From a virus, in the IMG/VR virus record IMGVR_UViG_3300036792_000058, positions 1-55,069 of that record: 55,069 nucleotides of DNA, one strand, 5' to 3'. The position numbers were made by a program, and so were the translations under genes. How positions within the stretch are numbered: the stretch's first letter is position 1; every line of letters starts with the position of its first letter. This document shows, piece after piece, positions 24,348-39,556 of this stretch. Under the pieces are notes generated by a model. It made no database searches. It worked only from the letters and a program-made list of their open reading frames with translations, and was not told where the DNA came from.

Positions 24348-24359
24348 AAAGGCAGCTCG

Positions 24360-24647
24360 ATGGCAGCCAACGTCCCTAACCCAGGCAATTATCAGCAGCA
24401 GCTCGGACAGCACTGCGTTGACGCGCGGAAGGCGATGCAGCAGCTACTGACCGATTGCGTCTACGTCAATGCGATGGGCGGTGCCGCGTTCCTCACCGGC
24501 GACATCTCCGCCGGGGGCATGGGCATTTCCGCTCCGGACGCAGCCATAATCATGGCGACGATCGGCTCGCTCACTCCGGACAGCGCCGACGTGCAGCAGA
24601 TTCAGGCGCTGATCGCGGGCACCGCGACGCTGTGGGGCGGGCAGTAA
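24360..24647 (+). CDS. Hypothetical tail-module protein
   Basis: 95 residues. Helical N-terminus (NYQQQLGQHCVDARKAMQQLLTDCVYV) with two Cys, then Gly-rich, then two helices (SAPDAAIIMATIGSL, ADVQQIQALIAGTATLWGG). No family recognised. A site AAAGG lies upstream. Position suggests a tail-fibre assembly or minor structural role. Confidence 0.7.
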   Translation: MAANVPNPGNYQQQLGQHCVDARKAMQQLLTDCVYVNAMGGAAFLTGDISAGGMGISAPDAAIIMATIGSLTPDSADVQQIQALIAGTATLWGGQ

Positions 24648-24661
24648 ACCTGTAAGCTGCG

Positions 24662-24678
24662 GTGTGAAGGGAGGTAAC
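24662..24678 (+). promoter_or_regulatory. Conserved leader motif (GTGTGAAG..AGGTAAC)
   Basis: The sequence GTGTGAAGGGAGGTAAC ends one base before ATG 24680. Near-identical leaders precede genes at 46233, 51042 and 53919 on the other strand. It includes the ribosome site (GGAGG) and may include the transcription start. Confidence 0.5.
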
Positions 24679-24679
24679 G

Positions 24680-26485
24680 ATGGCTCTAGAGAAGATCCAA
24701 GGCACCCAGGTCGTATCCTGGGCACCGCCGTTGCCTCAGCGTGCCTTCAAGATCACCGCCGCAGGTGTTTCATCAGATAACGGCAACATCGGCGGGCTCG
24801 CCACTGACGGCCAGCGCTACGGGTACTACGTCCTGGACACCTCCCAGTGGCAGGTAATCCAGGGGCTGCACACGCCGCCGGTATCGGTGGGCGAGTCGTT
24901 CCAGCTCTGGACCTCAACGTCCGGGGGATCGTTCTGGTACCCGCCGCCCTTCCAGAACGGCAACGCCGGCCCGCAGACAGCAGGAGCAGCGCCGACCGCG
25001 CCCCCGGCAGCCACCTGGGCCAGCGACTCCTACCACACCACCTACGCCGCCCCCGACCTGTTCAACGTGTATGCCCTGACGCAGACCCGCGAGATGGGGA
25101 ACAACGGCGGCAAGGCCATCTACACGATCAAGAACTCCCAGGTCTGCGTTGTCGTAGCGGTGCAGCAGTCCGCGTCGAACCAGTGGTATGTGTACTTCTC
25201 CCCGCCGCTGGACAACACCGTGATCAACACCACCACGGACGGCATCATTACCGTCCCGAGGCCGTACAATCCCCGCTACCTCGGTCAGATCGGGCACGTC
25301 TCCGGCATCAACTACACCTACACGATCCCCGGTGGCCCCAACCAGCTCACGTGCGTGCTCCAGATCGAGCCGAACTACCGCACCGACGCCATCAACCCCG
25401 GCCGCGTCATCACCGCGCACCGTGGCGGCTCGTGCATCTGGGAAGGCCAGCTCACGGAACCCGTGCCCGCCGCGAACGGCTGGACCCTGACGGCTAACGG
25501 CTGCGGCACGTACGGCACGAACTTCGGTGCCTGGTACCAGCCCAACCTCGGGCCGACCAAGAACTCCAACGGCTGGACGCCGGACGTTCCCGTGGACCTG
25601 GCCATCGCGCGCGGGCTGCGCTGGAGTAACCGTGGCATCGGGAGTCCCGTCGGCATCTACACCGGCCCGCTTCAGAACCCAGGCTCGCTGACGATCACGG
25701 ACTTCATGAACCTGCTGGTGACCGGCGGCTCCCTGCTGTGGGAACTCACCCAGCCTACGAGCGCGTCCACCTGGCCGCCCGGCCCGTGGGAAGTGACGCT
25801 CTACCAGATCCCCACAGACGAGAGCGGCAACCCGCTGGTGAACGGGCCTACCACCCAGACCCAGACGCAGCTCCTGGTCGGCGGGAAGTGGAAGCGCACG
25901 GACATGCTCACCAGCTCGGGCAGGCGTCCCCCGGACCTGATGCTGGTTAACACCTCGCCCGTGGCGCGCACCATCGTCGCGGATTACAACACGATCATCT
26001 TGTACTACCAGATCACGGCTGACACCACAGCCACGTCCACGGTGAAGGCCACCTCCGCCACGTACGGCACGACGTTCGTTGACTCGCCGGGGTCAGTGGC
26101 CGCGCACGGGCGAATGGAGTACTACCTGGACATCTCCAACGCCGGGGCCATGACTACCGCTGCGGCGCAGGCGATCGGCGTCAACGTCCTGACCAAGTAC
26201 ATCCGCGCGAACTTCTCGAACGCGTTCTCAGTCATGCCCGGCCAGCTTCTCAACCCCGGCGGCGTGCCCGTGGACCTCGGCCTGAACTGGAACGGCGCGG
26301 TGGTTACCGTACAGGGTGTGAACGCGGCACAGGGCGGCGAGGTAGGACTGTCCCCGGTGACGTTCATCATCGGCCAGTACGAGTTCGACGACGACACCCA
26401 GACCGCCACCATCACGCCCTACCAGAACGCGCTGAACGACATGGGATCGGTTATCGCCTCGCTCTATCCAGGGAAGTTCGCATGA
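24680..26485 (+). CDS. Minor tail protein (tail-tip, Tal-like)
   Basis: 601 residues. Beta-rich with sections such as YLGQIGHVSGINYTYTIPGG, DFMNLLVTGGSLLWEL and NPGGVPVDLGLNWNGAVVTVQG, followed by FIIGQYEFDDDTQTATITPY. The last is typical of the end of phage minor tail proteins. Last large gene of the tail operon. Probably part of the tail-tip complex; no enzymatic motif seen. Confidence 0.65.
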   Translation: MALEKIQGTQVVSWAPPLPQRAFKITAAGVSSDNGNIGGLATDGQRYGYYVLDTSQWQVIQGLHTPPVSVGESFQLWTSTSGGSFWYPPPFQNGNAGPQTAGAAPTAPPAATWASDSYHTTYAAPDLFNVYALTQTREMGNNGGKAIYTIKNSQVCVVVAVQQSASNQWYVYFSPPLDNTVINTTTDGIITVPRPYNPRYLGQIGHVSGINYTYTIPGGPNQLTCVLQIEPNYRTDAINPGRVITAHRGGSCIWEGQLTEPVPAANGWTLTANGCGTYGTNFGAWYQPNLGPTKNSNGWTPDVPVDLAIARGLRWSNRGIGSPVGIYTGPLQNPGSLTITDFMNLLVTGGSLLWELTQPTSASTWPPGPWEVTLYQIPTDESGNPLVNGPTTQTQTQLLVGGKWKRTDMLTSSGRRPPDLMLVNTSPVARTIVADYNTIILYYQITADTTATSTVKATSATYGTTFVDSPGSVAAHGRMEYYLDISNAGAMTTAAAQAIGVNVLTKYIRANFSNAFSVMPGQLLNPGGVPVDLGLNWNGAVVTVQGVNAAQGGEVGLSPVTFIIGQYEFDDDTQTATITPYQNALNDMGSVIASLYPGKFA

Positions 26486-26643
26486 TCTCGCGCAAGATCC
26501 AGATACTCGGGGCGATCATCGGGTCAGGTAACGCTGCGTCCATACTCCAGAAGCAGTACGGCATTCCCTTCTCAGTGATCCAGGCTGCCAATCACGGCGG
26601 CGTCTGGAACGTCACGAGTCTGCTGCCTTACATCACGTTCTAG
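26482..26643 (+). CDS. 53-residue LysM-like / tail protein X-like protein
   Basis: ATG overlaps the preceding stop (ATGA). The centre, ASILQKQYGIPFSVIQAAN, fits the LysM core (helix, YGI, then a second helix ending in AAN), as also found in tail protein X of contractile phages. It could bind peptidoglycan or sit at the tail tip. It ends the plus-strand tail operon, three bases before the converging minus-strand gene. Confidence 0.6.
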   Translation: MISRKIQILGAIIGSGNAASILQKQYGIPFSVIQAANHGGVWNVTSLLPYITF

Positions 26644-26646
26644 CGG

Positions 26647-27042
26647 TCACTTCTTCTTGCAGGAGTCCGCAGTCTCCCAGTAGATCAGGGCCTCGTAGAA
26701 CTGGTACGTCGCTTCCCGCGACGGGTTCTTCGCAGCGGTAGCACCCGGATTGGGAATCGGGGTAGCGGTCAGTAGTTCCAGGGCGTTGCACGCGTGCTGC
26801 TCCTCAGCGGTCGCGAATGTCTTGGCAGTAGTTGCGTTGCGCTGCACCTGGCCGACGAGGTTGTTCAGCCGCTGGGTGTTGAAGGCACCGATGACGATCA
26901 CCACGACAAGCGCGACGATGGCGACGCTCTGGGCAATGAGCCACCACTTGCGCCGCTGGTTAGCCTTGACCAGGGGCTCGACAACCTTCTGGGCGAGGAC
27001 GAGCAACTTGTCTTCGGCGGGCAGACCGGACTCTGGGATCAC
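26647..27042 (-). CDS. Membrane protein with external Cys pair, possible lysis protein
   Basis: 131 residues. Cytoplasmic-looking N-terminus, one TM segment (~34-54: WWLIAQSVAIVALVVVIVIG), then an external domain with two Cys (HACNALE and ADSCKKK). GTG start overlaps the stop of the upstream minus-strand gene. One-TM proteins paired with another membrane protein are often holin or spanin candidates; nothing here proves it. Confidence 0.6.
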   Translation of the reverse strand: MIPESGLPAEDKLLVLAQKVVEPLVKANQRRKWWLIAQSVAIVALVVVIVIGAFNTQRLNNLVGQVQRNATTAKTFATAEEQHACNALELLTATPIPNPGATAAKNPSREATYQFYEALIYWETADSCKKK

Positions 27043-27626
27043 TTTTGCTCCTGCTGCTTACGGCGGATTCGCGTAAGGTCCATTGTAGCGAGCACGATGG
27101 CAGCGGAAGTAGGGTCTCCAGGGTCTACGTGGAAGCCCACGTCCTGCCCTGGTATCCAGTCCTTGATGATCCTCAGGTAGTGGCGGAGGCGCATCTCCTG
27201 GTCAGCGCCGAACGGGCCGCGACCGTCAACGTACGCGTAGTACGCGTCGTACAGGGCGTCCAGCTCGGCGTTTTCAGGGTGCGGCTTGTGAAGTACCTGA
27301 ATGTTGGAGACGGCCAGCGCCTCGATCGCTTTCCACAAGGGCTCGACCTTAGTGTTCAGGGTGCTGAGCTGGTCCTTTACCGGCTCCAGCGCTTCAGCTA
27401 TCGCGATCTTCGTGGAGGCGTCCTGGTGAGAGCTTTCCGCGTCCAGTTTCGCGTGAATGCTCTGGAGGTCTGCCTTGATAGGCGCGAGGGCGGTGGCCAG
27501 GCGGGCGTCCATAGCCGACTTGCGCTCGGTCCTGCGCCTTCCGAAGCGCGTTTCCAGGTAAAGGAAGAGGGTGCCGAGACCGCCGATGACTGTGCCTACG
27601 ATAAGCGCAATCGTCCCTGCGTCCAC
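27039..27626 (-). CDS. N-anchored coiled-coil membrane protein, holin-like candidate
   Basis: 195 residues. One TM at ~5-23 (TIALIVGTVIGGLGTLFLYLE), then a basic stretch, a long helix (DARLATALAPIKADLQSIHAKL and on) and a folded C-terminus (YAYVDGRGPFGADQEMRLR). GTG start with AGGAG upstream. It forms a two-gene operon with 26647. Topology is like some actinophage holin-pair members, but function is unproven. Confidence 0.55.
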   Translation of the reverse strand: MDAGTIALIVGTVIGGLGTLFLYLETRFGRRRTERKSAMDARLATALAPIKADLQSIHAKLDAESSHQDASTKIAIAEALEPVKDQLSTLNTKVEPLWKAIEALAVSNIQVLHKPHPENAELDALYDAYYAYVDGRGPFGADQEMRLRHYLRIIKDWIPGQDVGFHVDPGDPTSAAIVLATMDLTRIRRKQQEQK

Positions 27627-27688
27627 GGGCCAGCTCCTGAATCCTGGGTGAAAACGACTACCTCACTCAAGAATAGGGGAGCTGGCCC
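27627..27688 (-). promoter_or_regulatory. Inverted repeat framing a candidate minus-strand promoter
   Basis: An 11-bp perfect inverted repeat (GGGCCAGCTCC at 27627-27637, complement at 27678-27688) encloses a minus-strand TTGAGT and CAGGAT pair about 18 bases apart. The start codon at 27626 follows directly. The repeat could be an operator or a terminator for the upstream minus-strand gene 27702-28571. Confidence 0.4.
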
Positions 27689-27701
27689 GGCGAACCTAGA
27701 G

Positions 27702-28571
27702 CTATGCGCGCACTAGCCTGACAGGGTTCTGGCCTGGCACGACCGCAACGACCCATCCGTCCTGAACAGTGAGGTACCGGCCGTCTGAAAGATTGACGCG
27801 GAGCCCGAACTCAGGCAGGCTGTTACCTGACATCACACCCTTGAGCGGCGCGGCATTCGGGCCTCCGGCGATCGAGCTGAAGTGCCCGTACTCCTCAACC
27901 TCTTCCAGCCCGAGGTCTTCCGCGAGCGCTCCCGTGCCCTTGCCCCGGATGATGTGCTGGGTGGTCTGGTCCTGAAGGTGCCGGCCGAAGGCGGTAACGT
28001 GATCAGCGCCGCCCTCAGCTTCTGCCCATGCGGCTTGCGCTTCCGCCTGGTACGCGCTGTTCGCGAACTGGCCCTGGGCTTTTTCCTCGTCCCGCGCGAT
28101 CTCTTCCTCACGGCGGGCGCGGTGACGCTGGATGGCTTCCCACTCCTCGCGGGTGCGGCGGTGCACGGGGCGCTTCGGCTGGTTCTTGCGTGCCTCGGCC
28201 TCGGCCCGCGTCTGCACGTCGGCCCGGACTCGCTTGTTGGCCTCGGCCACCATCTCACGGCCAAGCCGCTGGAACGCACGGCCCTGTGACATCAGCTCAC
28301 CAGTCAGCGGGTCGTACACGTCACCCTGCTCGCGCTTGGCGGCCTCGCTGACCTCGAACTTGTACTCCGGCTCCCAGCCGAGCTTGTTCCAGTCGTTCTT
28401 GATGACGGTGACCTTGGCGACCGACGCGTTCTTGGCCTGGAGCGCCTGGACGATGACCTGGGGCGCGGCTGGCGGGTACTGCTGCGGCTGCGGTGTCACG
28501 GGCACGGGATAGGGGGCATAGGGGACGGGCTGCGGGTACTGGCTAACTGCACGACGGCGGCCTTTGGGCAT
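27702..28571 (-). CDS. Unknown protein with Pro-rich N-terminus and charged coiled coil
   Basis: 289 residues. N-terminus rich in Pro, Tyr and Gln (~10-38). It then has a small domain (KVTVIKNDWNKLGWEPEYKFEVSE), a long charged helix (~110-185: RTREEWEAIQRHRARREEE), a mixed region (HVTAFGRHLQDQTTQHIIRG), and a C-terminal beta domain (FGLRVNLSDGRYLTVQDGWVV). No family recognised. Two bases separate it from the upstream gene. Confidence 0.65.
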   Translation of the reverse strand: MPKGRRRAVSQYPQPVPYAPYPVPVTPQPQQYPPAAPQVIVQALQAKNASVAKVTVIKNDWNKLGWEPEYKFEVSEAAKREQGDVYDPLTGELMSQGRAFQRLGREMVAEANKRVRADVQTRAEAEARKNQPKRPVHRRTREEWEAIQRHRARREEEIARDEEKAQGQFANSAYQAEAQAAWAEAEGGADHVTAFGRHLQDQTTQHIIRGKGTGALAEDLGLEEVEEYGHFSSIAGGPNAAPLKGVMSGNSLPEFGLRVNLSDGRYLTVQDGWVVAVVPGQNPVRLVRA

Positions 28572-28573
28572 GG

Positions 28574-28801
28574 TTACATCTTCTCCTGGATCTTGAGGTG
28601 CTTGTCGTAGGTGAGGAAATGCTCGTACGGCAGCCTGCCCAGCCTCTTCAGGGCACCGTTCTTGGCTGCGCCGCGCAGAGCAAGTGCATGACCGTAAGCG
28701 CGGTTGAAGTCATGCCTCAGTCGCCGCCAGCGAGCGGGGGTGGGCGACGCTTCCCAGCGTTGCACCCGCTCTTCGAGCGTCAGGGGCTTAGTTTGGCTCA
28801 T
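28574..28801 (-). CDS. Small basic hypothetical protein
   Basis: 75 residues from ATG at 28801 (SQTKPLTLEERVQRWEASP), rich in Arg and Lys and probably all helical. A longer reading from 28888 would cross the promoter of the divergent nuclease gene and is rejected. First gene of the minus-strand run 28801-26647. Confidence 0.6.
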   Translation of the reverse strand: MSQTKPLTLEERVQRWEASPTPARWRRLRHDFNRAYGHALALRGAAKNGALKRLGRLPYEHFLTYDKHLKIQEKM

Positions 28802-28821
28802 GCATCCCTTAACACGTCTAG

Positions 28822-28849
28822 GTGACGGATGATTCCCGGCGGGTAGAAT
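28822..28849 (+). promoter_or_regulatory. Candidate promoter for HKD nuclease gene, probably leaderless
   Basis: GTGACG (28822) and TAGAAT (28844) with 16 bases between. The expected transcription start, ~7 bases past the -10, falls on the ATG at 28857, so the mRNA may lack a 5' leader. No ribosome site is visible. Confidence 0.45.
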
Positions 28850-28856
28850 GTCCGTT

Positions 28857-29411
28857 ATGTCCATGAAGAATTTCCCCGATCTCGCCAAGTTCGCGGCGCG
28901 GCCGGTGCCTGTCGGCTACCCGGTTGAAGAGCATATAACGCTCTACGCGCCCGATGACAACCTCCACGGCGCGCTCGGGGCCTTCATCGACTCCGTTGAG
29001 CACTCGCTTTCCCTTGCGATGTACGGCTTTGACGACGACACGCTGGCCACCGCAGTGCTGCGCAAGCTCCAGGACCCGAAGGTCTTCGTCCAGCTCTGCC
29101 TTGACTCCACCCAGGCGGCCGGCGTGCACGAGAAGGCCCTGCTGGCGACGGTGAACTACCCGAGCAACGTCGTGGCCTTCGGGCACAGCGAGGGCGGCGC
29201 GATCATGCACCTGAAGACGGGAGTCATGGACGGGCTCGACTGCTTCTCCGGCTCTACCAACTGGAGCGAGTCCGGCGAGAGCAAGCAGGACAACGAGCTG
29301 AGCTTCACCCGCCACCCGATGATCGCCTTCCGGCTGCGCCACAAGATCGACCTGATCCACGCGAGCATGCTCACCCAGATGGACGCCAAGCGGGTGGCCG
29401 GTGGCCAGTAG
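28857..29411 (+). CDS. Phospholipase D-like (HKD) nuclease
   Basis: 184 residues from ATG 28857; in-frame ATGs at 28848 and 28863 are alternatives. One HxKxxxxD motif (H118, K120, D125 in MHLKTGVMDG) followed by FSGSTNWSES matches the Nuc/phospholipase D fold. Proteins with one HKD motif are usually dimeric endonucleases of the Nuc type. It may degrade host DNA or process RNA. First gene of the plus-strand run 28857-32619. Confidence 0.75.
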   Translation: MSMKNFPDLAKFAARPVPVGYPVEEHITLYAPDDNLHGALGAFIDSVEHSLSLAMYGFDDDTLATAVLRKLQDPKVFVQLCLDSTQAAGVHEKALLATVNYPSNVVAFGHSEGGAIMHLKTGVMDGLDCFSGSTNWSESGESKQDNELSFTRHPMIAFRLRHKIDLIHASMLTQMDAKRVAGGQ

Positions 29412-29682
29412 CAAGGGCCGCAACAAGCGTCACACGCACAGGTTCAAGAGGCCCGCCAACGACGGCTTCGTACCGTACATGGCGAGTAAGCTGTGCGAGG
29501 TATGCGGGAAGCAGTGCTACCCCACCCGCGAGGACGCCAAGCACTCTGCTAGGGTGAATCATCCCGGTAAGGTGATGCACGTCTACTACTGCACCGAGCC
29601 CTCGGGGATTGTATGGTGGCACCTGTCGTCCATCCCCGCCGACAAGCTCACGCAACTGAGGGACAGGAATCATGATCAGTAA
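29401..29682 (+). CDS. Small zinc-finger-like protein
   Basis: 93 residues, GTG start overlapping the nuclease by 11 bases. Basic start (SSKGRNKRHTHRFKRP), then CEVCGKQCYPTREDAKHSA, VNHPGKVMHVYYCTEP and WWHL. Such small Cys/His proteins with a reading like a zinc ribbon are frequent in phages. Possibly nucleic-acid binding. Confidence 0.65.
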   Translation: MASSKGRNKRHTHRFKRPANDGFVPYMASKLCEVCGKQCYPTREDAKHSARVNHPGKVMHVYYCTEPSGIVWWHLSSIPADKLTQLRDRNHDQ

Positions 29683-29899
29683 ACTACTCAACTGGCTCAT
29701 GGGCTGGTACACCACCCGCCACATCAAGAAGCACAGCCCGGAGCTGTACAAGTTCCTGAAGGGCTACGAGTACCGGGACGAGGACTTCGTAGAAGTCGAG
29801 CGCCCTGAAGGCGGGACCAAGCTCCGCATCCACAAGGACGCGATGGAGAACCTGCGCAAGCTCGGCATCGACGAGAACAACATCCTCGACGACGAGTGA
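29672..29899 (+). CDS. Small hypothetical protein
   Basis: 75 residues. Trp-rich start (ISKLLNWLMGWYTTRHI), then a charged body and acidic end (LGIDENNILDDE). Overlaps both neighbours (11 and 4 bases). No family recognised. Confidence 0.6.
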   Translation: MISKLLNWLMGWYTTRHIKKHSPELYKFLKGYEYRDEDFVEVERPEGGTKLRIHKDAMENLRKLGIDENNILDDE

Positions 29900-30060
29900 T
29901 CTTCTGGAGCTGCCAGCGGTGCGGGCTGAAGATGTGGCCCGAGGAACTGCTGGAGCACGTCCGGCTGCTGCATCCTGACTTCGACAAGGACATTGAGCGC
30001 TGGGCGGACGGCGAGCTAGCCGTCTACGACGAAACCATCGACGAGGAGTTCAGGACGTAG
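29896..30060 (+). CDS. 54-residue C2H2 zinc-finger protein
   Basis: GTG start overlaps the previous TGA (GTGA). CQRCGLKMWPEELLEH then VRLLH gives Cx2C-x11-Hx4H, a classical C2H2 spacing starting at Cys6. The tail is acidic. The fold is small enough for one zinc finger; DNA, RNA or protein binding is possible. Confidence 0.65.
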   Translation: MIFWSCQRCGLKMWPEELLEHVRLLHPDFDKDIERWADGELAVYDETIDEEFRT

Positions 30061-30064
30061 CGCC

Positions 30065-30847
30065 ATGCCCAAGACCAGGGCCCCTGAGACCAGGGGCAGG
30101 CACCGCATCGACCGTGCACCGGGGCCGGTTACCTCGGCCTACAAGATCATGTCCTTCAAGCCGAAGCACAAGCTCTCTGACCTGATGCTCCGGCTCTGGC
30201 CGCTCCTGCCGCTCATACCCCTGGCCTACGCCGCCGCTCACGGCAAGCTGATGGCCTATGCCGATGACACCCTCGGCTACGACGCGGTACTGGCACTGGT
30301 TGCCTGCCTCGCGGTCACCCCTGTCATCACCGCCGTCAAGATGCCCATCGCCAAGCTCCGGTGGTGGTACGGGAACTGGGTGTTCTTCCTCGGCGCTACC
30401 GGCCTGGTCCTGCACCTGGCCTACCCTCCGGGAACCCTCGCGGCCCGCGCCGCCGGGAACTCAGTGGACTGGACGGGCACCCTGATCATCGCCCTGCTGC
30501 TGCCCATGACCGCAACCTCGTCCGTCATCGCCCAGAAGCTGCTGGGACCGGAGTGGAAGCGCTGGCAGCGCGGGCTGGTGTGGGTGGTGTGGGCCGTCAT
30601 CGCGCTGCACCTGTACCTCATGCACGCCCCGGTCACCCTCGCGGCCTACTTCGCCGCCACCCTGCCCGCCATCGTCATCAGGCAGTCCTCGATTCGCAAG
30701 AGCGTCAAGGACTGGCGGGCTGACCACTACGAGAACGGCCACTGGTGGGTAGTGATGGGAACACTCGCTACCCTCGCCATCGCCGGCGTCACGGTCCTGA
30801 TGTCAGAGGAGATTCGCGTTGCCATCCACGCCGTCCTCCTCACGTAA
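30065..30847 (+). CDS. Ferric-reductase-like heme membrane protein (MsrQ/YedZ type)
   Basis: 260 residues, basic N-tail then about six TM segments. The body follows MsrQ/YedZ and the ferric reductase-like transmembrane family: TLGYDAVLALVACLAVTPV, WWYGNWVFFLGATGLVLHLAY (H117), LLLPMTATSS, then WKRWQRGLVWVVWAVIALHLY (H182). MsrQ proteins bind b-type heme and pass electrons across the membrane. The His of the usual WQRLHR motif is Gly170 here, so one heme ligand may be missing or supplied by H187. A very unusual phage gene. It starts the cassette 30065-32252. Confidence 0.7.
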   Translation: MPKTRAPETRGRHRIDRAPGPVTSAYKIMSFKPKHKLSDLMLRLWPLLPLIPLAYAAAHGKLMAYADDTLGYDAVLALVACLAVTPVITAVKMPIAKLRWWYGNWVFFLGATGLVLHLAYPPGTLAARAAGNSVDWTGTLIIALLLPMTATSSVIAQKLLGPEWKRWQRGLVWVVWAVIALHLYLMHAPVTLAAYFAATLPAIVIRQSSIRKSVKDWRADHYENGHWWVVMGTLATLAIAGVTVLMSEEIRVAIHAVLLT

Positions 30848-31001
30848 GCCAGCTATATCCAGACGGGGAATACAGCTAGCAACCGCAACGGTTCTAGGTG
30901 TTGTAACCATCTCCCTGATCCTCGGCATCCTTGCCCTCGGTGCCTGGGAAATTCACCTCAGCGGATTCACGCTGTGGCTACACGCAATGACAGGAAGGTA
31001 A
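30819..31001 (+). CDS. Small membrane protein, one TM
   Basis: 60 residues from TTG 30819, overlapping the reductase-like gene by 29 bases. Ser/Arg-rich start, then TM ~20-45 (ATATVLGVVTISLILGILAL), and end SGFTLWLHAMTGR. Three bases separate it from the secreted-protein gene, so it is likely co-translated. Possible partner or chaperone of the heme protein. Confidence 0.55.
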   Translation: MPSTPSSSRKPAISRRGIQLATATVLGVVTISLILGILALGAWEIHLSGFTLWLHAMTGR

Positions 31002-31004
31002 GGT

Positions 31005-32252
31005 ATGTCATCTCACAGGCGCACGAGCAGGAAGAAGGCGTGGGCTGTAGCAGCCTGCATCGCCACTGCCGTCGGAACAGGGGCAGGCATCGCATACGCC
31101 TCGCCCGGAGACCACCCGCAAGGCGAGCACTCGTTCTCCGACCCGTTCCGGTACGTCAGCCACCAAGGACTGCACAATCTGACCAGCGCACCCGACTGCA
31201 CGCTGAAGGTGCCCTCTGACCCGCTGTCCGCTCGCGGACTGGCAACCCCCTACGTGCTGCACAGCGCCGGGGCCATGTGCAACGAAGACGAGACGACCGG
31301 CGCGTTTGTCCAGGCCACCATCCTCGACCCGGCTACCGGCGTGGTCAGCGTCTACGACCCCGAGGTAGTCACACCAGGCGAGAGCGCGCCCACACCTCCC
31401 GTGGTGAAGCTGCCACGCGATGCTGTGGTGTCCATCTGGACCGGCTTCAACGGCAACAAGCTGAAGCTGACCGGGGAAGGCGCTGGCGAGTTCGTGAACT
31501 TCGCCCAGCAGTCCTACGACAACAGCCCGCAGATGTTCACCGCACTCAACCGTGCAGTGCGCGCAGGGAAGCTGACGGTTCCTCCTGTCGGCATGGGCAT
31601 GGACAACCTGGCCTGCCCGACCACCCGCGACGCATCGGTCACCGACCAGGACCCGAACGACAACGTGCCGGTCACCTACCCGTACGCGTCTAACGCCTCC
31701 AACGGCTCTGACGAACAGCTCGTCAACCTGATTCAGGGAGCGCTCGGGTGCAAGGAATGGACGGTGCCGCTGCTCGACCCAGGCGTTGCCATGGGCTCTG
31801 GGATGGGAACTTCCACCTCCGGCGTGCTCCAGGAACTCCAGGCGGCGACCGACCAGCAGGTTCCGGTCCAGCTCGTGCCTGGTAACGACGAGTTCACCAC
31901 CACCAACGGTGACTTCGTTCCGCCCACGGGAACAGGCAAGTACGACATGTTCCGCAACAACCTGTACCGCGAGCAGGTTGATCAGCCCCCGGCGTTCTCC
32001 AACCAGACGGCGCAGTTCTGCACCAACCTGAAGGAAGGCGCAGCCCGCCTCGGGCAGGACCAGTCACTGGACGCGATGCAGCCGGCTCCGGCGTTCGCGA
32101 ACATCGGCACCAACCTCGCCAACGTCCTGGCCGGGCGGTTCGTGGCTACCTGGCAGTTGCTTGACTGCACAGGTATCTCACCGATCACAGTGACTACGCA
32201 GAACCCTGACGGCACGGGCCTCGTGGTCAGCGCGACTTACCCGTCACCGTGA
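31005..32252 (+). CDS. Secreted protein of actinomycete type
   Basis: 415 residues. Signal peptide (SSHRRTSRKK, then hydrophobic ~12-30, cleavage near AYA/SPG). The mature part begins with DCTLKVPSDPLSARGLATPY and has repeated landmarks (FVQATILDPATGVVSVYDP, VVSIWTGFNGNKLKL, ALGCKEWTVPLLDPG, and FCTNLKEGAARLGQ). Its cysteines would form disulfides. I recall similar large secreted proteins in actinomycetes and fungi; no enzyme is assigned. Transfer from the host, along with the reductase-like gene, is likely. Confidence 0.65.
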   Translation: MSSHRRTSRKKAWAVAACIATAVGTGAGIAYASPGDHPQGEHSFSDPFRYVSHQGLHNLTSAPDCTLKVPSDPLSARGLATPYVLHSAGAMCNEDETTGAFVQATILDPATGVVSVYDPEVVTPGESAPTPPVVKLPRDAVVSIWTGFNGNKLKLTGEGAGEFVNFAQQSYDNSPQMFTALNRAVRAGKLTVPPVGMGMDNLACPTTRDASVTDQDPNDNVPVTYPYASNASNGSDEQLVNLIQGALGCKEWTVPLLDPGVAMGSGMGTSTSGVLQELQAATDQQVPVQLVPGNDEFTTTNGDFVPPTGTGKYDMFRNNLYREQVDQPPAFSNQTAQFCTNLKEGAARLGQDQSLDAMQPAPAFANIGTNLANVLAGRFVATWQLLDCTGISPITVTTQNPDGTGLVVSATYPSP

Positions 32253-32283
32253 GGAACCATCACAGTCAGCTACATTAGGGTGT

Positions 32284-32619
32284 GTGGCCCGTACTCACCA
32301 TGCAACCCGAACGTGGCGTCTTAGCTGCGGCTGCCTGCGTGACTACCCCGGAATGCCGCTCGGGAAAGTGCACCAGGTTCTGTGCGTGGCATGCCGCACC
32401 GCCGTGACCACCTTGTACGCGTACGAGGAGCGGCGGTGCGGCTACACCACAACGGCCGGGCGGCCGGAAGACGGCAAGCTGATCCACGTGAGCTGTACCA
32501 ACACCGAGGGAAGCAAGGACTGTGGCAAGGGCCTCCACTTCGACAGGTACGTGCAGCTCAGGTTCACGCAGCGCGGCAAGCTGAAGGCAACCCGGACTGG
32601 CTCGACAGGTCGCCCCTAG
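32284..32619 (+). CDS. Cys-rich small protein, putative zinc ribbon
   Basis: 111 residues from GTG. Ligand-like pattern: SCGCL, then VLCVACRT, RRCGYTT and SCTNTEGSKDCGK. Two CxxC-like knuckles suggest one or two zinc sites. Basic end (QRGKLKATRTGS). Last protein gene before the RNA array. Confidence 0.55.
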   Translation: MARTHHATRTWRLSCGCLRDYPGMPLGKVHQVLCVACRTAVTTLYAYEERRCGYTTTAGRPEDGKLIHVSCTNTEGSKDCGKGLHFDRYVQLRFTQRGKLKATRTGSTGRP

Positions 32620-32630
32620 CGTGTGATACA
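32602..32630 (+). promoter_or_regulatory. Candidate promoter of the Y RNA array
   Basis: TCGACA (32602) and GATACA (32625) are 17 bases apart. The predicted start (~32637) falls at the outer helix of the first Y RNA (32640). No clear promoter was seen between the later units, so one processed transcript is plausible. Confidence 0.4.
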
Positions 32631-32639
32631 GTCGGAACC

Positions 32640-32760
32640 TGGAGCCGGAAGGTACCTGGTTATCCTTCTGAACAAAGGCCCGTAGGTGGTGGAACTCCAC
32701 TGAACCCGCAAGGGTGTGCTCACTAAGCAGGGTAAACGGTCAGGTCCGTACTACGCCCCA
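32640..32760 (+). ncRNA. Y RNA 1 (Ro-binding stem plus tRNA-like insert)
   Basis: Short outer helix TGG/CCA. The 5' strand AGCCGGAAGG is followed by inner helix ACCTGG (32654) with TCAGGT (32740), then TTATC; the 3' strand is TACTACGCC. The insert holds a T-arm-like hairpin (GTGG, loop TGGAACT, CCAC at 32686-32700), a GCAA-capped hairpin (32704-32715) and TGCT/AGCA (32717-32729). This is the same arm order as in units 3, 6 and 7. The outer helix is weaker than in other units. Confidence 0.65.
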
Positions 32761-32775
32761 ACAACTACATACTTC

Positions 32776-32875
32776 GAGCGAGCCGGACAAGTGCCGGTTA
32801 TCTGCGGGAGATCGGAGGCGGCCCAGATACTTGCTGGGTGCGCACGTAAAACCCGGAACTTCCTTACGCCCGCTC
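32776..32875 (+). ncRNA. Y RNA 2
   Basis: Outer helix GAGCG/CGCTC (32776 and 32871). 5' strand AGCCGGAC; inner helix AAGT-G-CCGG with CCGG-A-ACTT (one mismatch); then TTATC. 3' strand CTTACGCC. The insert has CCCAG/CTGGG with a seven-base loop, closed by TGCG/CGCA, and lacks a clear T-arm. The outer helix differs in sequence from the other units but still pairs. Confidence 0.75.
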
Positions 32876-32878
32876 ACA

Positions 32879-32950
32879 TGCCAGGTAGCCCAAGTAGAGG
32901 CAGCCTCCAATAAGAGGAACTAAGTGGCGGTGTCGAATCCGCCCCTGGCA
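32879..32950 (+). tRNA. Degenerate tRNA or tRNA-like RNA
   Basis: 72 bases with a perfect 7-bp acceptor (TGCCAGG/CCTGGCA), TA at 8-9, and arms in normal tRNA order. It departs from a working tRNA in three places: the D-loop lacks the GG pair, the CCTC/GAGG anticodon hairpin has only six loop bases (CAATAA), and the T-loop has an extra base (TGTCGAAT). No anticodon can be assigned. Either a decayed tRNA between Y RNA genes or a tRNA mimic. Confidence 0.5.
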
Positions 32951-32970
32951 CTAGACAACTAAACAGCGTG

Positions 32971-33101
32971 ACAGTGAGCCGGATGTTGCCCGGTTATCAA
33001 TGGTTCGATTCCACTACCAGGCTCCGCTTCGGCGTACGCCTGGTGCGCAAGGCGCGCATCCCTCGCAAGAGGGAGACCCGGACACGCCTTATGCCCACTG
33101 T
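32971..33101 (+). ncRNA. Y RNA 3 with permuted tRNA-like insert
   Basis: Outer helix ACAGTG/CACTGT. 5' strand AGCCGGAT; inner CCGG/CCGG with outward pairs; TTATC; 3' strand CCTTATGCC. The insert shows T-arm TGG-TTCGATT-CCA (33001-33013), a 7-bp acceptor-like helix ACCAGGC/GCCTGGT (33016 and 33038) capped by CGC-TTCG-GCG, then a D-arm-like GCGC/GCGC hairpin (33045-33057) and a GCAA-capped hairpin. T-arm, acceptor, D-arm is the order of a circularly permuted tRNA. Confidence 0.8.
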
Positions 33102-33109
33102 GCCTCTTC

Positions 33110-33176
33110 GGTGCGAGCCGAATGCGAGCGTTATCCTTCTAAGATAAAATGCTCAAAGTAGTCTTACGCCCGCACC
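33110..33176 (+). ncRNA. Y RNA 4, short form without tRNA-like insert
   Basis: Outer helix GGTGCG/CGCACC (6 bp). 5' strand AGCCGAAT, TTATC and 3' strand CTTACGCC are kept. Inner helix GAGCG/TGCTC. Only about 20 bases lie between the two inner strands, so this 67-base RNA has the Ro-binding stem but no tRNA-like module. Confidence 0.7.
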
Positions 33177-33188
33177 TACAACTTCAGA

Positions 33189-33267
33189 GCAGAGCCGGAA
33201 CAATGGGGTTACCCTTACCAAGGTCGAAAGATCAAGGATATTTCCCCGCCGTGACCTTACGCCCTGC
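33189..33267 (+). ncRNA. Y RNA 5, short form
   Basis: Outer helix GCAG/CTGC. 5' strand AGCCGGAAC, inner GGGG/CCCC, TTACC in place of TTATC, and 3' strand CCTTACGCC. The small insert has a CCTT/AAGG hairpin and GGTC-GAAA-GATC, a GNRA-capped hairpin. Weaker pairing than the others, but all signature blocks are in register. Confidence 0.6.
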
Positions 33268-33286
33268 CCACTAACTCAATAGCGTT

Positions 33287-33437
33287 GCGGAGAGCCGGAG
33301 TTGTCCGGTTATCACTTGTTAAACTGGGTGTTGCGGGTTCAAATCCCGTCCGGGAGCCTCAGAACTTCCGGTAGCTCAAGCTGGCAGAGCACTAGTCTGA
33401 GTCCCGAAAGGGAGCCGGCGGCATCTACGCCCTCCGC
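33287..33437 (+). ncRNA. Y RNA 6 containing a full circularly permuted tRNA module
   Basis: Outer helix GCGGAG/CTCCGC, 5' strand AGCCGGAG, inner CCGG/CCGG, TTATC, 3' strand CTACGCC. The insert folds as a permuted tRNA: ACTGG (33323, anticodon-stem 3' strand), T-arm GCGGG-TTCAAAT-CCCGT (33333-33349), acceptor 3' strand CCGGGAG (33350), an eight-base linker, acceptor 5' strand CTTCCGG (33365), TA, D-arm GCTC/GAGC with GG in its loop (33374-33390), and CTAGT (33392), which pairs with ACTGG. A TCCC-GAAA-GGGA hairpin follows. The Ro stem joins at the open anticodon end. Confidence 0.85.
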
Positions 33438-33449
33438 GCCCACAGCAGC

Positions 33450-33563
33450 GAGACGAGCCGGATGTACCTGGTTATCCTTGCGAAGAATGTGGTTCGAATC
33501 CACCGGGCCTTCGGGCTTAGGGAGTGTGGCTTCTCCAGTTCCAGGTATGCTTACGCCCGTCTC
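33450..33563 (+). ncRNA. Y RNA 7, nearest to the Ro gene
   Basis: Outer helix GAGACG/CGTCTC, 5' strand AGCCGGATG, 7-bp inner helix TACCTGG/CCAGGTA (33465 and 33541), TTATC, 3' strand GCTTACGCC. The insert has T-arm GTGG-TTCGAAT-CCAC (33489-33503), a shortened acceptor hairpin capped by TTCG (33507-33516) and D-arm GGAG/CTCC with GG in the loop (33521-33536). It has the cleanest pairing and lies 26 bases before the Ro start codon. Confidence 0.85.
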
Positions 33564-33589
33564 AACTAACACACAGGAAGGAACACCCG

Positions 33590-35197
33590 ATGGCCGACGC
33601 ACTCCGCTCGTTCAGGCACGGCGTTACCCCGCAGACCGAGCAGGCCCGTCCCGACGAAGTGAAGAACAACGCCGGCGGCTACGTGTTCGAGGTTGACGAC
33701 CGCACCCGGCTCAACCGCTTCCTGACCCTCGGCACCGAGGGCGGCACGTACTACGTGGACGAGCAGAAGCTCACCCGTGACAACGCCAAGCTCGTCGTCA
33801 AGATGAGCGAGGGCAGCGACCGCAAGCTGATCATGGACACCGTGATGGTGTCGCACGACGGGCGTGCCCCGCGTAACCAGCCTGCCCTGTTCGCCATGGC
33901 GGCTGCGGCCGGACTCGGCGACACTGCCTACCGGCACGAGGCGCTGGACTTCCTGCCCCAGGTCGCGCGCACCGGCTACCACTTCCTGGTCTGGGCCGAG
34001 TACATCGAGATGTTCCGTGGCTGGGGCCCGCAACTCGTCAAGGGCGTCGCGAACTGGTACAAGATCCAGTCGCCGGAAGACCTCGCCTACCAGGTGCTGA
34101 AGTACAAGCAGCGCGAGGGCTGGTCGCAGCGCGACCTCATGCGGCTGGCCAATGGTGCCGGCGGCCTCAAGCACGGGGCCACCTCAGCGCAGGCGGCTGT
34201 GTTCGATTACGTCATGAAGGGCCACTTCGACCCTGACGCGCTGCCGCCGGTCATCGAGGCCGCCCACAAGGCGCACGAGACCCGCGACGTTCGTGAGTGG
34301 GTACGGCTGATCGAGCGCAACCGCTCGCTGTCGTGGGAGATGCTGCCCTCCGAGGCGCTGGCCAAGGCTGAGGTGTGGGTCGCGCTGATCGACAACGGGA
34401 ACCTCCCGCTCGGCGCGCTGCTGCGCAACCTGTCGCGGCTGACCCGGCTGGGTGTCATCGCCCCGATGTCCACGTACAACGCGTGGATCGCGGCCCTGCT
34501 CACTGACAAGACGGCGATCCTCAAGGCGCGCATCCACCCGATCCAGGTGCTGCTGGCGCTCAAGACCTACGCCCTGGGGCACTCAATCCAGGGCACCTCA
34601 CGGTGGCTGCCGGTCCCGCAGGTCACTGACGCGCTGAACGAGATGTTCTACCTCGCGTTCGGCAACGTGGTGCCCTCGGGCAAGCGCACGCTGATCTGCC
34701 TGGACGTGTCCAGCTCGATGAACAACACCGTCTCCGGCTACGCGTTCAAGGCGCGGGAGATCTCGGCTGCCATGGCCCTGATCACGATGAAGACCGAGCC
34801 GCAGTACGCGGCGATGGCCTTCTCCCACCAGTTCGTGCCGCTAGGCATCTCCCCCGCGCAGCGCCTGGACGACGTGGTGAACTCGATCTCCAACCTGCCG
34901 TTCGGCCGGACTGACTGCGCGCTGCCCATGGCGTGGGCCCAGTACAACAACCTGGCGGTGGACACCTTCCAGGTCTGGACGGACAACGAGACCTGGTACG
35001 GGCCCAACGGCCACCCGCACGAGGCGCTGAAGAGCTACCGCCGGGCCACCGGCATCAACGCCCGGCTCCAGGTGGCTGCGGTCACCCCGACGCAGTTCTC
35101 GATCGCGGACCCGCTGGACCCCGGTCAGCTCGACGTGTCCGGGTTCGACGCGGCGGTGCCGAAGCTGATGGCCGACCACGCTCGCGGAGACATCTGA
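33590..35197 (+). CDS. rsr: Ro60/Rsr homologue (TROVE and vWA domains)
   Basis: 535 residues from ATG 33590 with AGGAAGGAA upstream. The N-terminal ~360 residues have the Ro HEAT-repeat ring pattern (LNRFLTLGTEGGTYYVDEQ, YHFLVWAEYIEMFRGWG, WSQRDLMRLANG). A von Willebrand A domain follows with an intact MIDAS (LDVSSSMN, Asp372). Ro binds misfolded RNAs in its central hole and Y RNA on its outer face. In bacteria Rsr works with Y RNA and exoribonuclease. The adjacency to a Y RNA array fits an Rsr ribonucleoprotein. Confidence 0.95.
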   Translation: MADALRSFRHGVTPQTEQARPDEVKNNAGGYVFEVDDRTRLNRFLTLGTEGGTYYVDEQKLTRDNAKLVVKMSEGSDRKLIMDTVMVSHDGRAPRNQPALFAMAAAAGLGDTAYRHEALDFLPQVARTGYHFLVWAEYIEMFRGWGPQLVKGVANWYKIQSPEDLAYQVLKYKQREGWSQRDLMRLANGAGGLKHGATSAQAAVFDYVMKGHFDPDALPPVIEAAHKAHETRDVREWVRLIERNRSLSWEMLPSEALAKAEVWVALIDNGNLPLGALLRNLSRLTRLGVIAPMSTYNAWIAALLTDKTAILKARIHPIQVLLALKTYALGHSIQGTSRWLPVPQVTDALNEMFYLAFGNVVPSGKRTLICLDVSSSMNNTVSGYAFKAREISAAMALITMKTEPQYAAMAFSHQFVPLGISPAQRLDDVVNSISNLPFGRTDCALPMAWAQYNNLAVDTFQVWTDNETWYGPNGHPHEALKSYRRATGINARLQVAAVTPTQFSIADPLDPGQLDVSGFDAAVPKLMADHARGDI

Positions 35198-35349
35198 TGA
35201 CCACCGTCATCTGGCGCAATTCCGAAACGCGCGAGGAATCGGTTCAGCGCCCCGGCGACCCGGTGTTCGTGGAGAGCCAGTCGGTCACCCAGGCAGGCAG
35301 CGGCAGCACGGTCATCATCTCGTACCGGCCATTCGAGTTCGCCTTTTAG
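35197..35349 (+). CDS. 50-residue hypothetical protein downstream of Ro
   Basis: ATG overlaps the Ro stop (TGATG). Begins TTVIWRNSETREESVQRPG and ends with a strand (STVIISYRPFEFAF). Beta-rich, no family recognised. Translational coupling suggests it is produced with Ro and could be a partner. Confidence 0.65.
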   Translation: MTTVIWRNSETREESVQRPGDPVFVESQSVTQAGSGSTVIISYRPFEFAF

Positions 35350-35351
35350 GA

Positions 35352-36173
35352 GTGACCGTGCAGCTACGGGTGCTAGTCGCCTGTGAGTGCAGCGGCCGGG
35401 TGCGCGAGGCGTTTGCGAAGCGCGGGTGGCAGGCGTGGTCGGCAGACCTGCTGCCCAGTGAACTGCCCCCGCGCCTGCTCGCCACCCGTGACATCGCCAG
35501 GGTCCTGGTTAACAAGAGCGCCCCCATGAACGCGGGCGGCCACTACCAGGGCGACGTGCTCGACCTGTTCAACTGGAACCACCCGGTCAACGACGGGCGC
35601 AGCAACCTGAACCGTCACTGGCCGGTATGGGATGCTACCCCGTCGCCGCCCCTGTGGGACCTGATCATCGCCCACCCGCCGTGCACTGACCTGAGCTACG
35701 CCGGGGCCCGGTGGTTCAAGCTCAAGGACGCCCGGCGCGGCGGTGACGGCCGGATGCAGGCGGCTGCCGCGTTCTTCATGGAGATGCTGACCGCGCCCAG
35801 CCCGCTGATAGCTGTGGAGAATCCTCACAGCATCATCCAGGAGGAGGGCTGGGCCGGCAGGTCCGATCAGGTTGTCCAGCCGTGGTGGTTCGGTGACCCG
35901 TACGTCAAGGACACGCACCTGTGGCTCAAGGCACTGCCCGAGCTGAACCCGGACAAGCCTGTCACCCCCGAGTGGCGGGTGACGACCGGCGGTGGTAGCT
36001 GGCGAACTGACAAGGCCGCCCAGCGCAAGGCGATGTCCTCCTACGAGGACTCCGAGGGCAGGATCAACCGCGCTAAGGTGAGGTCACGGACGTTCCCCGG
36101 CTTCGCCCGCGCGATGGCGGACCAGTGGGGCTCGTTCGCGGAGAAGTACTACGCCGATCTCGGACGACACTAG
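35352..36173 (+). CDS. DNA (cytosine) methyltransferase-like protein
   Basis: 273 residues. LRVLVACECSGRVREAFAKRG resembles the SAM-binding start of C5 methyltransferases. IIAHPPCTDLSYAG (~106-120) has the PPC catalytic motif, and AVENPHSIIQ (~154) corresponds to motif VI. The later FGDPYVKDTHLWLKALPEL is typical of a phage subfamily annotated as cytosine methyltransferase. GTG start. Could protect phage DNA from host restriction. Confidence 0.7.
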   Translation: MTVQLRVLVACECSGRVREAFAKRGWQAWSADLLPSELPPRLLATRDIARVLVNKSAPMNAGGHYQGDVLDLFNWNHPVNDGRSNLNRHWPVWDATPSPPLWDLIIAHPPCTDLSYAGARWFKLKDARRGGDGRMQAAAAFFMEMLTAPSPLIAVENPHSIIQEEGWAGRSDQVVQPWWFGDPYVKDTHLWLKALPELNPDKPVTPEWRVTTGGGSWRTDKAAQRKAMSSYEDSEGRINRAKVRSRTFPGFARAMADQWGSFAEKYYADLGRH

Positions 36174-36182
36174 GCTGGAGCC

Positions 36183-36785
36183 ATGGCCGACAGCAACGAC
36201 GTTCTCCAGCAGTACTACCCGTGGCTGCGGAAGACGGCAGGTAACCTGATCGGCTTTGACGACCCGTGGCTGGACGACCTGATCCAGGAGGGGTACATCG
36301 CCATGTGGCGGGCCTACCAGGACTACGACCCGGACAGGGGCCCGCTGGTGCCGCGCCTGCTGTACTGCGCCCGCAAGCGCATGGTGAACGTCGCCTACGG
36401 GGCGCACAGGTACACGGGCCACGAGCCGGCACGCGGCCATGCGGAGGCGAAGTCTCCCCTGCACTATGACGAACTCCCAGACCGCGAGTACGTGATGCCC
36501 GTGACCAGGGACGACCCGTACGTTGAGCCGTCGCTGACCGATGCCCTGGCAGCCCTGCCGCCGAAGCAGCGCGCGTACGTGTTCCTGCGGTTCTGGATAG
36601 CCAACGGCGCGTTCGGCCGCACTCCCTCGGTCATGAGGCTGCGCGAGCAGTACCCGCTGCTGGGTAACGACAAGCTCTGGCTCAGGGCCCGCGACGCACT
36701 CCGTAAAGACCCACGGGTGCGGGTGCTAGCGGGACTTCCGCCAGTAGAAATAGATGAAGACACTGCGGCGTTAGGAATAACATGA
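36183..36785 (+). CDS. Sigma-factor-like transcription regulator
   Basis: 200 residues. The N-terminus (YYPWLRKTAGNLIGFDD, LDDLIQEGYIAMWRAYQDY, PRLLYCARKRM) fits sigma-70 region 2. A central DALAALPPKQRAYVFLRFW could be region 4 start, but the usual helix-turn-helix after it is divergent (TPSVMRLREQYPLLGNDKLW). Probably redirects host RNA polymerase to phage promoters. Confidence 0.7.
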   Translation: MADSNDVLQQYYPWLRKTAGNLIGFDDPWLDDLIQEGYIAMWRAYQDYDPDRGPLVPRLLYCARKRMVNVAYGAHRYTGHEPARGHAEAKSPLHYDELPDREYVMPVTRDDPYVEPSLTDALAALPPKQRAYVFLRFWIANGAFGRTPSVMRLREQYPLLGNDKLWLRARDALRKDPRVRVLAGLPPVEIDEDTAALGIT

Positions 36786-37057
36786 CTGATTACATCGAGG
36801 GGCCCGCCAAGGGCAAGGTCCAGTTCATCAAGAACGCGGGCGGCATCCAGCTTGAGATGGTGCCCAGTCGCACGGCACCCACCGGCACGTACGTCTGCGT
36901 GGTGGACAACGGGCACTTCGAGGCCGCCGCCATAGCCAAGACCGCAGACGACCTGCAAGCGTTCAACGTTCCCACGGACGACCGCCCCAAGTGGTGGCTG
37001 CACGTGGACGACGAAACCCTCAAGAAGCTCCTGTACGAGGGAGGCAGTGCCCCGTGA
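36782..37057 (+). CDS. Hypothetical protein
   Basis: 91 residues, ATGA overlap with the previous stop. Basic start (GKVQFIKNAGGIQLEMVPS), a central strand-turn (YVCVVDNGHFEAAAIAKT) and an acidic Trp-containing end (KWWLHVDDETLKKLLYEG). No family recognised. Confidence 0.6.
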   Translation: MTDYIEGPAKGKVQFIKNAGGIQLEMVPSRTAPTGTYVCVVDNGHFEAAAIAKTADDLQAFNVPTDDRPKWWLHVDDETLKKLLYEGGSAP

Positions 37058-37146
37058 AGCACATCACCGAGCTGATCGCGTTCATCGCGGTCCTGACATT
37101 CGTCTTCCTGCTGGTCTTCCTGGCCCACAATCACTGGCACTTCTGA
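37054..37146 (+). CDS. 30-residue membrane peptide
   Basis: GTG overlaps the previous stop and its own TGA overlaps the next ATG. Almost all one TM segment (~6-24, LIAFIAVLTFVFLLVFLA) with a His/Trp end (HNHWHF). Coupling at both ends supports it being translated. Confidence 0.55.
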   Translation: MKHITELIAFIAVLTFVFLLVFLAHNHWHF

Positions 37147-38006
37147 TGAAGGAACACTACCGCCCGAAGCAGGAGAAGCGGTCGCTGGACAAGCACGCTA
37201 CCCCGTGGCACAAAGAGGTAGCCGAGCGGGGGACGATCCTGCTCACCGAGGTGGGCTCGGGCCTGCACGGCACGTCTGTCTCTGACCAGGACGACCGCGA
37301 CGAGATGGGCGTGTGCATCGAGCCGCCGGATGCCGTGATCGGCTTCAAGAGCTTCGAGCAGTACGAGTGGAAGACCGCCTGGGAGCGCGAGGGGATGCGC
37401 GCCAACCGCTCCGGTCCCGGTGACGTGGACCTGGTGGTCTACAGCCTCCGCAAGTGGATGCGGCTGGCGATGAACGGCAACCCCACCGTGCTGCTGATGC
37501 TGTTCGCCCCCAGTAACAAGATCGTCCGGCAGTCGGTCGAGGGCATCGAGCTGCGCCGGATGATGCCGCAGTACATCCTGAGCCAGCTCGCGGGCCAGCG
37601 CTTCATCGGCTACCTGCACAAGCAGCGTGAGAACCTGCTGTCTCACAATGGCAAGGGCCGGGACTGCACGCGGCCGGAGCTGATCGAGAAGTACGGCTTC
37701 GACACCAAGTTCGCCGGGCACATGATCCGGCTGGGCATCCAGGGGCTGGAACTTCTGAACACGGGCAAGATCACGCTGCCGATGACCTCGGCCGACGCCT
37801 ACCTGATCAAGGCGATCCGCACCGGGAACTACAAGATGGACGAGTGCCTGGCCATGGCAGAGATCCTGGAGGAAGACCTGGTTACCCTGATGGCCTCCGG
37901 CAAGTCCCCGCTGCGGCCGGAACCTGCCTACGAGGAGATCGACAAGTGGCTGGCGGCCATCTACCAGTGGCGCTGGACAACGGACGCAATCAACCAGGAG
38001 GAATGA
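37146..38006 (+). CDS. RlaP-like nucleotidyltransferase (DNA polymerase beta superfamily)
   Basis: 286 residues from ATG 37146. GSGLHGTSVSDQDDRDEMGV (~37-56) matches the GS...D-x-D nucleotidyltransferase motif as seen in the RlaP family, where the name means RNA ligase-associated protein. DVDLVVYSLRKWMRLAMNGNP and the HMIRLGIQGLELLNTG helix also fit that family. It lies 2 kb after the Ro gene, so a role in RNA end repair or tailing is an inference. Confidence 0.7.
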   Translation: MKEHYRPKQEKRSLDKHATPWHKEVAERGTILLTEVGSGLHGTSVSDQDDRDEMGVCIEPPDAVIGFKSFEQYEWKTAWEREGMRANRSGPGDVDLVVYSLRKWMRLAMNGNPTVLLMLFAPSNKIVRQSVEGIELRRMMPQYILSQLAGQRFIGYLHKQRENLLSHNGKGRDCTRPELIEKYGFDTKFAGHMIRLGIQGLELLNTGKITLPMTSADAYLIKAIRTGNYKMDECLAMAEILEEDLVTLMASGKSPLRPEPAYEEIDKWLAAIYQWRWTTDAINQEE

Positions 38007-38380
38007 TGGTCTACGTCGCGTCCCTCTGTCACCACATAGAAGAGGGCACTACCGTCCGGATCGAGGAAGTCAGCCTCTGGCACCTGTACAAGGAACACCT
38101 GGGCGACTGGGTGTTCGGTGCGATGTCGCGTATCCAGTACGACTGGATGTACGAGGTGCGCTGGGGACGCAAGGACCCCGACTGGGGGCTAGCCGACCAC
38201 AGCCTGGGGCACCTGCTGTTCGCCTTTTCCCAGTGGTGCGGCAACGGCTTCGGGCACTGGCACGACCGGAAGCTGATTGCTTCCTTCCCGGTGACGCCTG
38301 AATGGGTGCGCGAGCACATGCCTGAGCTAGGATGGCCTTGGGACGGCAGCGAACTTGACTGTGAGGAGGGTTCACAGTGA
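38003..38380 (+). CDS. Hypothetical protein rich in His and Trp
   Basis: 125 residues from ATG-ATG at 38003 or 38006, overlapping the previous stop. Contains LWHLYKEHLGDWVFGAMSR, LGHLLFAFSQWCGNG and HWHDRKL. Frequent aromatic and His residues suggest a metal or hydrophobic core, but no family is recognised. Confidence 0.6.
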   Translation: MMVYVASLCHHIEEGTTVRIEEVSLWHLYKEHLGDWVFGAMSRIQYDWMYEVRWGRKDPDWGLADHSLGHLLFAFSQWCGNGFGHWHDRKLIASFPVTPEWVREHMPELGWPWDGSELDCEEGSQ

Positions 38381-39316: not shown

Positions 39317-39319
39317 GAG

Positions 39320-39556
39320 ATGCCGCAACCAGTCGTGTACATCTACGAGGTCAAGATCACGGGCCAGCCTTCGGCCTATTTCACCTGGCCTAACCCCGCG
39401 AAGAAGTTCATCCGGGACGTGTACACCACCTTTGACGGCGCGCTCGCCCTGCCTCCCAGGGACAGGCTGAAGGTCACCCGCCACAAGGTCAATCCCCGTG
39501 CGAGCCACGCCATGATCGAGGATGTTATCGACGTGGAGGAGTGGCTTGCTGCCTGA
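39320..39556 (+). CDS. Hypothetical protein
   Basis: 78 residues. Beta-like start (PQPVVYIYEVKITGQPSAYF), then a helical end (SHAMIEDVIDVEEWLAA). No family recognised. The next gene starts inside its last codons. Confidence 0.6.
   Translation: MPQPVVYIYEVKITGQPSAYFTWPNPAKKFIRDVYTTFDGALALPPRDRLKVTRHKVNPRASHAMIEDVIDVEEWLAA

Follow-up and report, generated by a model that had tools for sequence, protein, structure and literature searches.

We describe a compact three-gene cassette that five divergent phages keep in the same order. Its products are a divergent homologue of MsrQ, a membrane protein with one helix, and a secreted protein with invariant cysteines. The window analysed is a 55,069-nucleotide stretch of IMGVR_UViG_3300036792_000058, a 55 kb uncultured virus record from a tailed soil phage. 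The cassette is likely to modify the infected cell's surface. The reading that we prefer, with somewhat less than even confidence, is that it is one surface cassette of soil actinobacterial phages, in which the MsrQ-derived pair passes electrons outward through heme to the secreted partner. If true, the cassette would point to a phage-encoded transmembrane redox function. No precedent for phage ferric reductases, or for phage-encoded surface systems like this one, was found in the literature.

The original prediction had placed three linked genes at 30065-32252, and three plus-strand ORFs are present there. Upstream lie three small ORFs that overlap or nearly touch:

29401-29682, + strand, small ORF
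29672-29899, + strand, small ORF
29896-30060, + strand, small ORF
30065..30847, + strand, divergent MsrQ/ferric-reductase-domain homologue with six membrane helices, 260 aa
about 30819..31001, + strand, small membrane protein with one helix, at most 60 aa when started at TTG 30819
31005..32252, + strand, secreted protein, 415 aa

The six-helix ORF begins 4 bases past the preceding gene, the one-helix ORF overlaps the 3' end of the six-helix ORF, and the secreted ORF begins 3 bases past the one-helix stop; the spacing of the three is as in a single transcript. The small ORFs at 29401..30060 are probably on the same transcript as the cassette; they were not recognised beside the cassette in other phages. 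The last of them (29896-30060), adjoining the cassette, encodes a small zinc-finger-like protein with a weak match to PF18439, below the cut-off. No ATG around the cassette is preceded by a strict Shine-Dalgarno pattern. For the one-helix gene, the codon that aligns with the ATG of the related contig L002 is ATA (at 30855), so that either TTG 30819 or a non-standard start must be used. The predicted one-TM gene is supported by equivalents in four other phages: an RGxQLAxATVLG motif is conserved in L002 and L003, and L005 and L017 have a one-helix ORF at the same place.

Relatives of the six-helix protein were found in four IMG/VR contigs, L002 (143 kb), L003 (140 kb), L005 (98 kb) and L017 (190 kb), at identities of 54%, 57%, 52% and 39%; those for the secreted protein are 51%, 48%, 53% and 41%. 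In all five cassette phages the trio keeps the same order and is tightly packed, the genes overlapping or touching, at about 40-58% identity to the window, and a secreted gene lies 3' of every phage six-helix gene found (5/5). Because relatives occur in these contigs with constant order and packing, the cassette ORFs are genuine genes. GenBank phages held no relative of the six-helix or the secreted protein and PHROGs gave no convincing match for either, in agreement with the earlier statement that no known phage function is represented here. Just upstream of the L002 cassette, at L002 41-2239, is a gene for a 732-aa protein of SDTDSGHGTDAGE-type repeats.

When the same gene pair was sought in bacteria, as had been suggested originally, none of 80 secreted-family loci, kept from relatives in 147 genome contigs, had a six-helix gene linked to the secreted gene; the pairing is thus seen only in phages. 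The six-helix profile likewise gave no trio arrangement in the sets of 396, 70 and 394 actinobacterial genomes searched with it. Its matches were only distant chromosomal MsrQ-like proteins, and L121, the strongest of those whose surroundings were examined, lies near no secreted-family gene. These counts bear on whether the genes are host-derived accessory cargo, the membrane and secreted genes co-travelling by chance. The secreted family occurs widely in bacteria resembling the hosts, and two phage loci, L007 and L011, carry the secreted gene without the membrane genes, as cargo would allow, but the close packing of the trio in five divergent phages and its absence from the bacterial loci and genomes largely contradict this origin, which we regard as very improbable.

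Scans with the secreted family gave further phage copies lacking a six-helix gene: L007 (the second copy of the L002 phage), L011, L012, L013, L014/L015 and L016. Two of these, L007 and L011, fall in the secreted clade of the cassette phages and have no six-helix neighbour, so that the six-helix partner is dispensable. That the cassette arose only once is not established by the secreted-protein tree, since L007 and L011 nest inside the cassette clade, and loss or paralogy must be allowed.

The six-helix protein has no name in Pfam or NCBIfam, and querying family collections directly with the window proteins was unhelpful. Its relatives are more informative. In family searches, those of L017 and L005 match the MsrQ model at E values of 5e-7 and 2.4e-6. 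When the MsrQ model NF003831 was run record by record, it picked out the cassette gene in every one of the five records (E values: window 2.7e-4, L005 8.6e-7, L017 6.3e-7, L002 8e-4, L003 0.02), and its match in the window record is exactly the cassette locus; the scores, 15.3 bits for the window and 24-26 bits for L005 and L017, are all under the curated cut-off of 130 bits. In a profile-profile comparison (hhalign) against an alignment holding genuine MsrQ, the match had a probability of 98.8% across 191 columns (E 9e-17). The sequences compared had been collected with this six-helix profile, but the independent model NF003831 agrees with the result. Conversely, the six-helix family profile retrieves genuine MsrQ from bacterial genomes (L102/L103), L102 scoring 185 bits to the MsrQ model. 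PF01794 gave no hit in the window; its best sub-threshold values among the cassette relatives, per record, were 2.7e-4 for L003 and 7.8e-4 for L005. FAD/NAD-type ferric reductases gave no match in a profile comparison, which places the link in the MsrQ branch. The structural model of the six-helix protein is weak (pLDDT 61), and its matches to SpNOX (Z 6.4), NOX5 (5.5) and STEAP4 (5.2) stand among unrelated helical matches, within noise. A sequence search of solved structures gave nothing for the six-helix or the secreted protein. Judged by profiles, the six-helix protein is genuinely homologous to the MsrQ/ferric-reductase-domain family, though divergent, and the predicted MsrQ/YedZ-like ancestry stands, including in the MsrQ comparison that had been proposed as a check.

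Two of the three heme-ligating histidine positions of MsrQ have been lost. In the MsrQ alignment, Gly113 occupies the position of the helix-3 ligand and is Gly in 5/5 phages, Gln168 occupies that of the inner helix-5 ligand, and, once a one-residue insertion is allowed for, His182 matches the outer helix-5 ligand. His117 is one turn further along the helix than the lost helix-3 ligand, at the place of NOX2 position 119. R99, Q168 and His182 are each kept in 5/5 members, and His117 in four of five, being Ala in L017. The original prediction had named His117 and His182, which are present, and had Gly170 in place of a usual ligand; residue 170 varies across the family (G/S/W/G/P) and is not a ligand position, the replaced ligands being those at Gly113 and Gln168. 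Short proteins of the YedZ/STEAP branch with a ferric-reductase domain have Arg and Gln instead of the inner-heme histidines and are thought to keep the outer heme (PMC3591440), and R99 and Q168 match this Arg/Gln signature. Heme binding by the six-helix protein is plausible from these residues. Since L017 has a single His, bis-His heme is possible in four members and is not general.

The ligand losses can also be taken to mean that, within the same surface cassette, the six-helix protein is a degenerate, non-redox member of the MsrQ fold that serves the secreted protein as a membrane scaffold, an exporter or an anchor. The canonical helix-3 and inner-heme ligands are gone in 5/5, L017 retains only His182, and the family has acquired new conserved features, including the N-terminal stretches RGRH and PGPVT. 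A pure scaffold, however, sits less easily with the retention of R99, Q168, His182 and the LLPxAxTS core, as in the single-heme relatives (PMC3591440), and with the redox proteins found among the neighbours of other secreted-family copies. Because of the ligand losses this possibility is nearly as likely as electron transfer, and we give it roughly a third of our belief.

With MsrQ (YedZ), the heme subunit of MsrPQ methionine-sulfoxide repair, the six-helix protein shares homology over about 190 residues, six helices, the outer helix-5 His, the LLPxAxTS motif and the W-K-R loop, but the window protein reaches 15 bits against a cut-off of 130 and has Gly113 and Gln168 where MsrQ has the helix-3 and inner helix-5 histidines. 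Unlike MsrPQ, the cassette has no adjoining MsrP-like gene, its partners being the one-helix and secreted proteins; no MsrP molybdopterin enzyme domain was found in the neighbouring ORFs scanned. STEAP and short bacterial PF01794 proteins have the same helix-3 Arg and helix-5 Gln replacing inner-heme histidines (PMC3591440), but the outer helix-3 ligand of the phage protein is off the canonical position and the protein falls below the PF01794 cut-off. Actinobacteria also have systems in which an MsrQ-like membrane protein is combined with an exported partner that is flavinylated outside the cytosol (PMC8238504), whereas the secreted protein of the cassette has no FMN-binding domain by Pfam and no D-x-x-[ST]-G-A-[TS] motif. 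The nearest bacterial six-helix relatives found, the chromosomal actinobacterial proteins L101/L118 and L119/L121, lack the helix-3 His too; they differ in keeping both helix-5 histidines, and no secreted gene adjoins in L121 or in the short stretch L101.

The secreted protein has a signal peptide at about residues 1-35, by inspection, and a globular domain from about residue 63. By sequence comparison it is a member of an unnamed six-Cys family of soil bacteria, with taxa in Actinomycetota, Ktedonobacteria, Acidobacteriota and a few Proteobacteria MAGs, and the description of it as an actinomycete-type protein holds. It shares with that family homology over the whole domain, six cysteines (65, 92, 204, 249, 339 and 388) invariant in 62/62 sequences, and the motifs VDQDxSDN and N(G/P)SD. 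A further Cys pair has both members present in 55 sequences and both absent in 7, and never occurs singly; being always present or missing together, it gives strong evidence of a disulfide, and the secreted protein is probably disulfide-bonded. The seven sequences without this fourth pair are exactly the actinophage sequences, the window's included, and they form a separate group: six make a fully supported clade, which L017 joins with weaker support. The structural model is confident (pLDDT 84, pTM 0.82), and a fold search in PDB and BFVD, a viral structure library, gave no match; the model, of more than 400 residues, was searched unsplit, so that a fold may have been missed. The protein has no flavinylation or twin-arginine motif and no recognisable redox cofactor motif. 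The cassette draws attention to a widespread unnamed secreted family of soil bacteria whose confidently predicted fold is without match in these libraries.

The bacterial relatives appear to be surface proteins. They have anchor-like N-termini and long linkers, members from Streptacidiphilus have a sortase-like C-terminal tail, and one (L027) has a weak MAM-like domain. The surface location that our best explanation gives the secreted protein follows these anchor-like segments, linkers, sortase-like tails and extra surface domains, and the NlpC/P60 domain fused to the secreted domain in L017 is further surface context. Two phage loci give further context:

L007 7205-8709, fn3 protein with sortase-like tail, and sortase (PF04203, 6e-21), beside the second secreted-gene copy of the L002 phage
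L012 4413-6380, ferric reductase with FAD and NAD domains, on a phage contig, directly before a secreted-family gene

L007 also has a 4Fe-4S ferredoxin ORF before the secreted gene, and in two Geodermatophilaceae MAGs a ferric-reductase-like gene is divergent to the secreted-family gene. A ferric reductase lies close to the secreted gene at only 2 of the 80 bacterial loci. A redox theme recurs around secreted-family genes; the cases are few and may in part be due to chance.

Some of the phage neighbourhoods raise the question of whether the cassette instead has a role in lysis or in releasing virions, with the secreted protein acting on the cell wall late in infection and the small membrane proteins making up part of a lysis or holin-like module. 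The secreted gene of L005 is beside tail-like genes, that of L017 is near an endolysin and is fused to an NlpC/P60 domain, and those of L012 and L113 adjoin holin-like genes, by inspection, L012 having a LysM-type gene as well. Yet the secreted domain has no recognised hydrolase match and stands alone as a surface-type protein in many bacteria, the L003 cassette sits among replication genes, and an MsrQ ancestry is not that of a holin. We consider a role in lysis quite unlikely.

Under the electron-transfer reading, the three genes would be one functional cassette acting outside the infected cell. The secreted protein would be exported, folded with three disulfides and located at the cell surface, with the six-helix and one-helix proteins as its membrane partner. 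The membrane pair would most likely send electrons outward via a single outer-leaflet heme, held by His182 with His117, to an acceptor that could be the secreted partner or its thiols. The outcome would be a changed envelope of the infected cell, whether for exclusion of competing phages or in preparation for lysis. We infer that the trio works together at the infected-cell envelope, a picture that would comprise complex formation, heme, electron flow, a surface location in the phage case and a benefit to the phage. A bolder version, in which these are non-integrating phages whose MsrQ-derived redox pair, with its relocated heme ligand, powers or matures a surface protein of possibly new fold, for example in rival-phage exclusion, strikes us as doubtful but not far-fetched. 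Actinobacterial phage genes acting outside the host cell are poorly known.

The original prediction spoke of a lysogenic or infected host; for lysogeny we found no support: a tyrosine or serine integrase was found in none of the five cassette records (window, L002, L003, L005 and L017), which may be incomplete, while both integrase models gave matches in control genomes. Lysogenic conversion is likewise unsupported. Other features of the window are:

512-1561, head-tail adaptor
14116-24347, tail-fibre-assembly-like proteins
28848-29411, phospholipase D-like protein (PF13091, 4e-9), a short distance upstream of the cassette
33587-35197, Ro60/TROVE protein with vWA domain (PF25045 E 5e-57, PF05731 2e-37)

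No annotated Y RNA was found, and no Rfam RNA family reached threshold across the whole window. Downstream are genes for a methyltransferase, a sigma-factor-like protein and a nucleotidyltransferase. At 37249-37368 the nucleotide sequence matches the Gordonia phage nucleotidyltransferase gene over a short length (78-85%); across 24000-42000 no other DNA similarity to GenBank phages was found.
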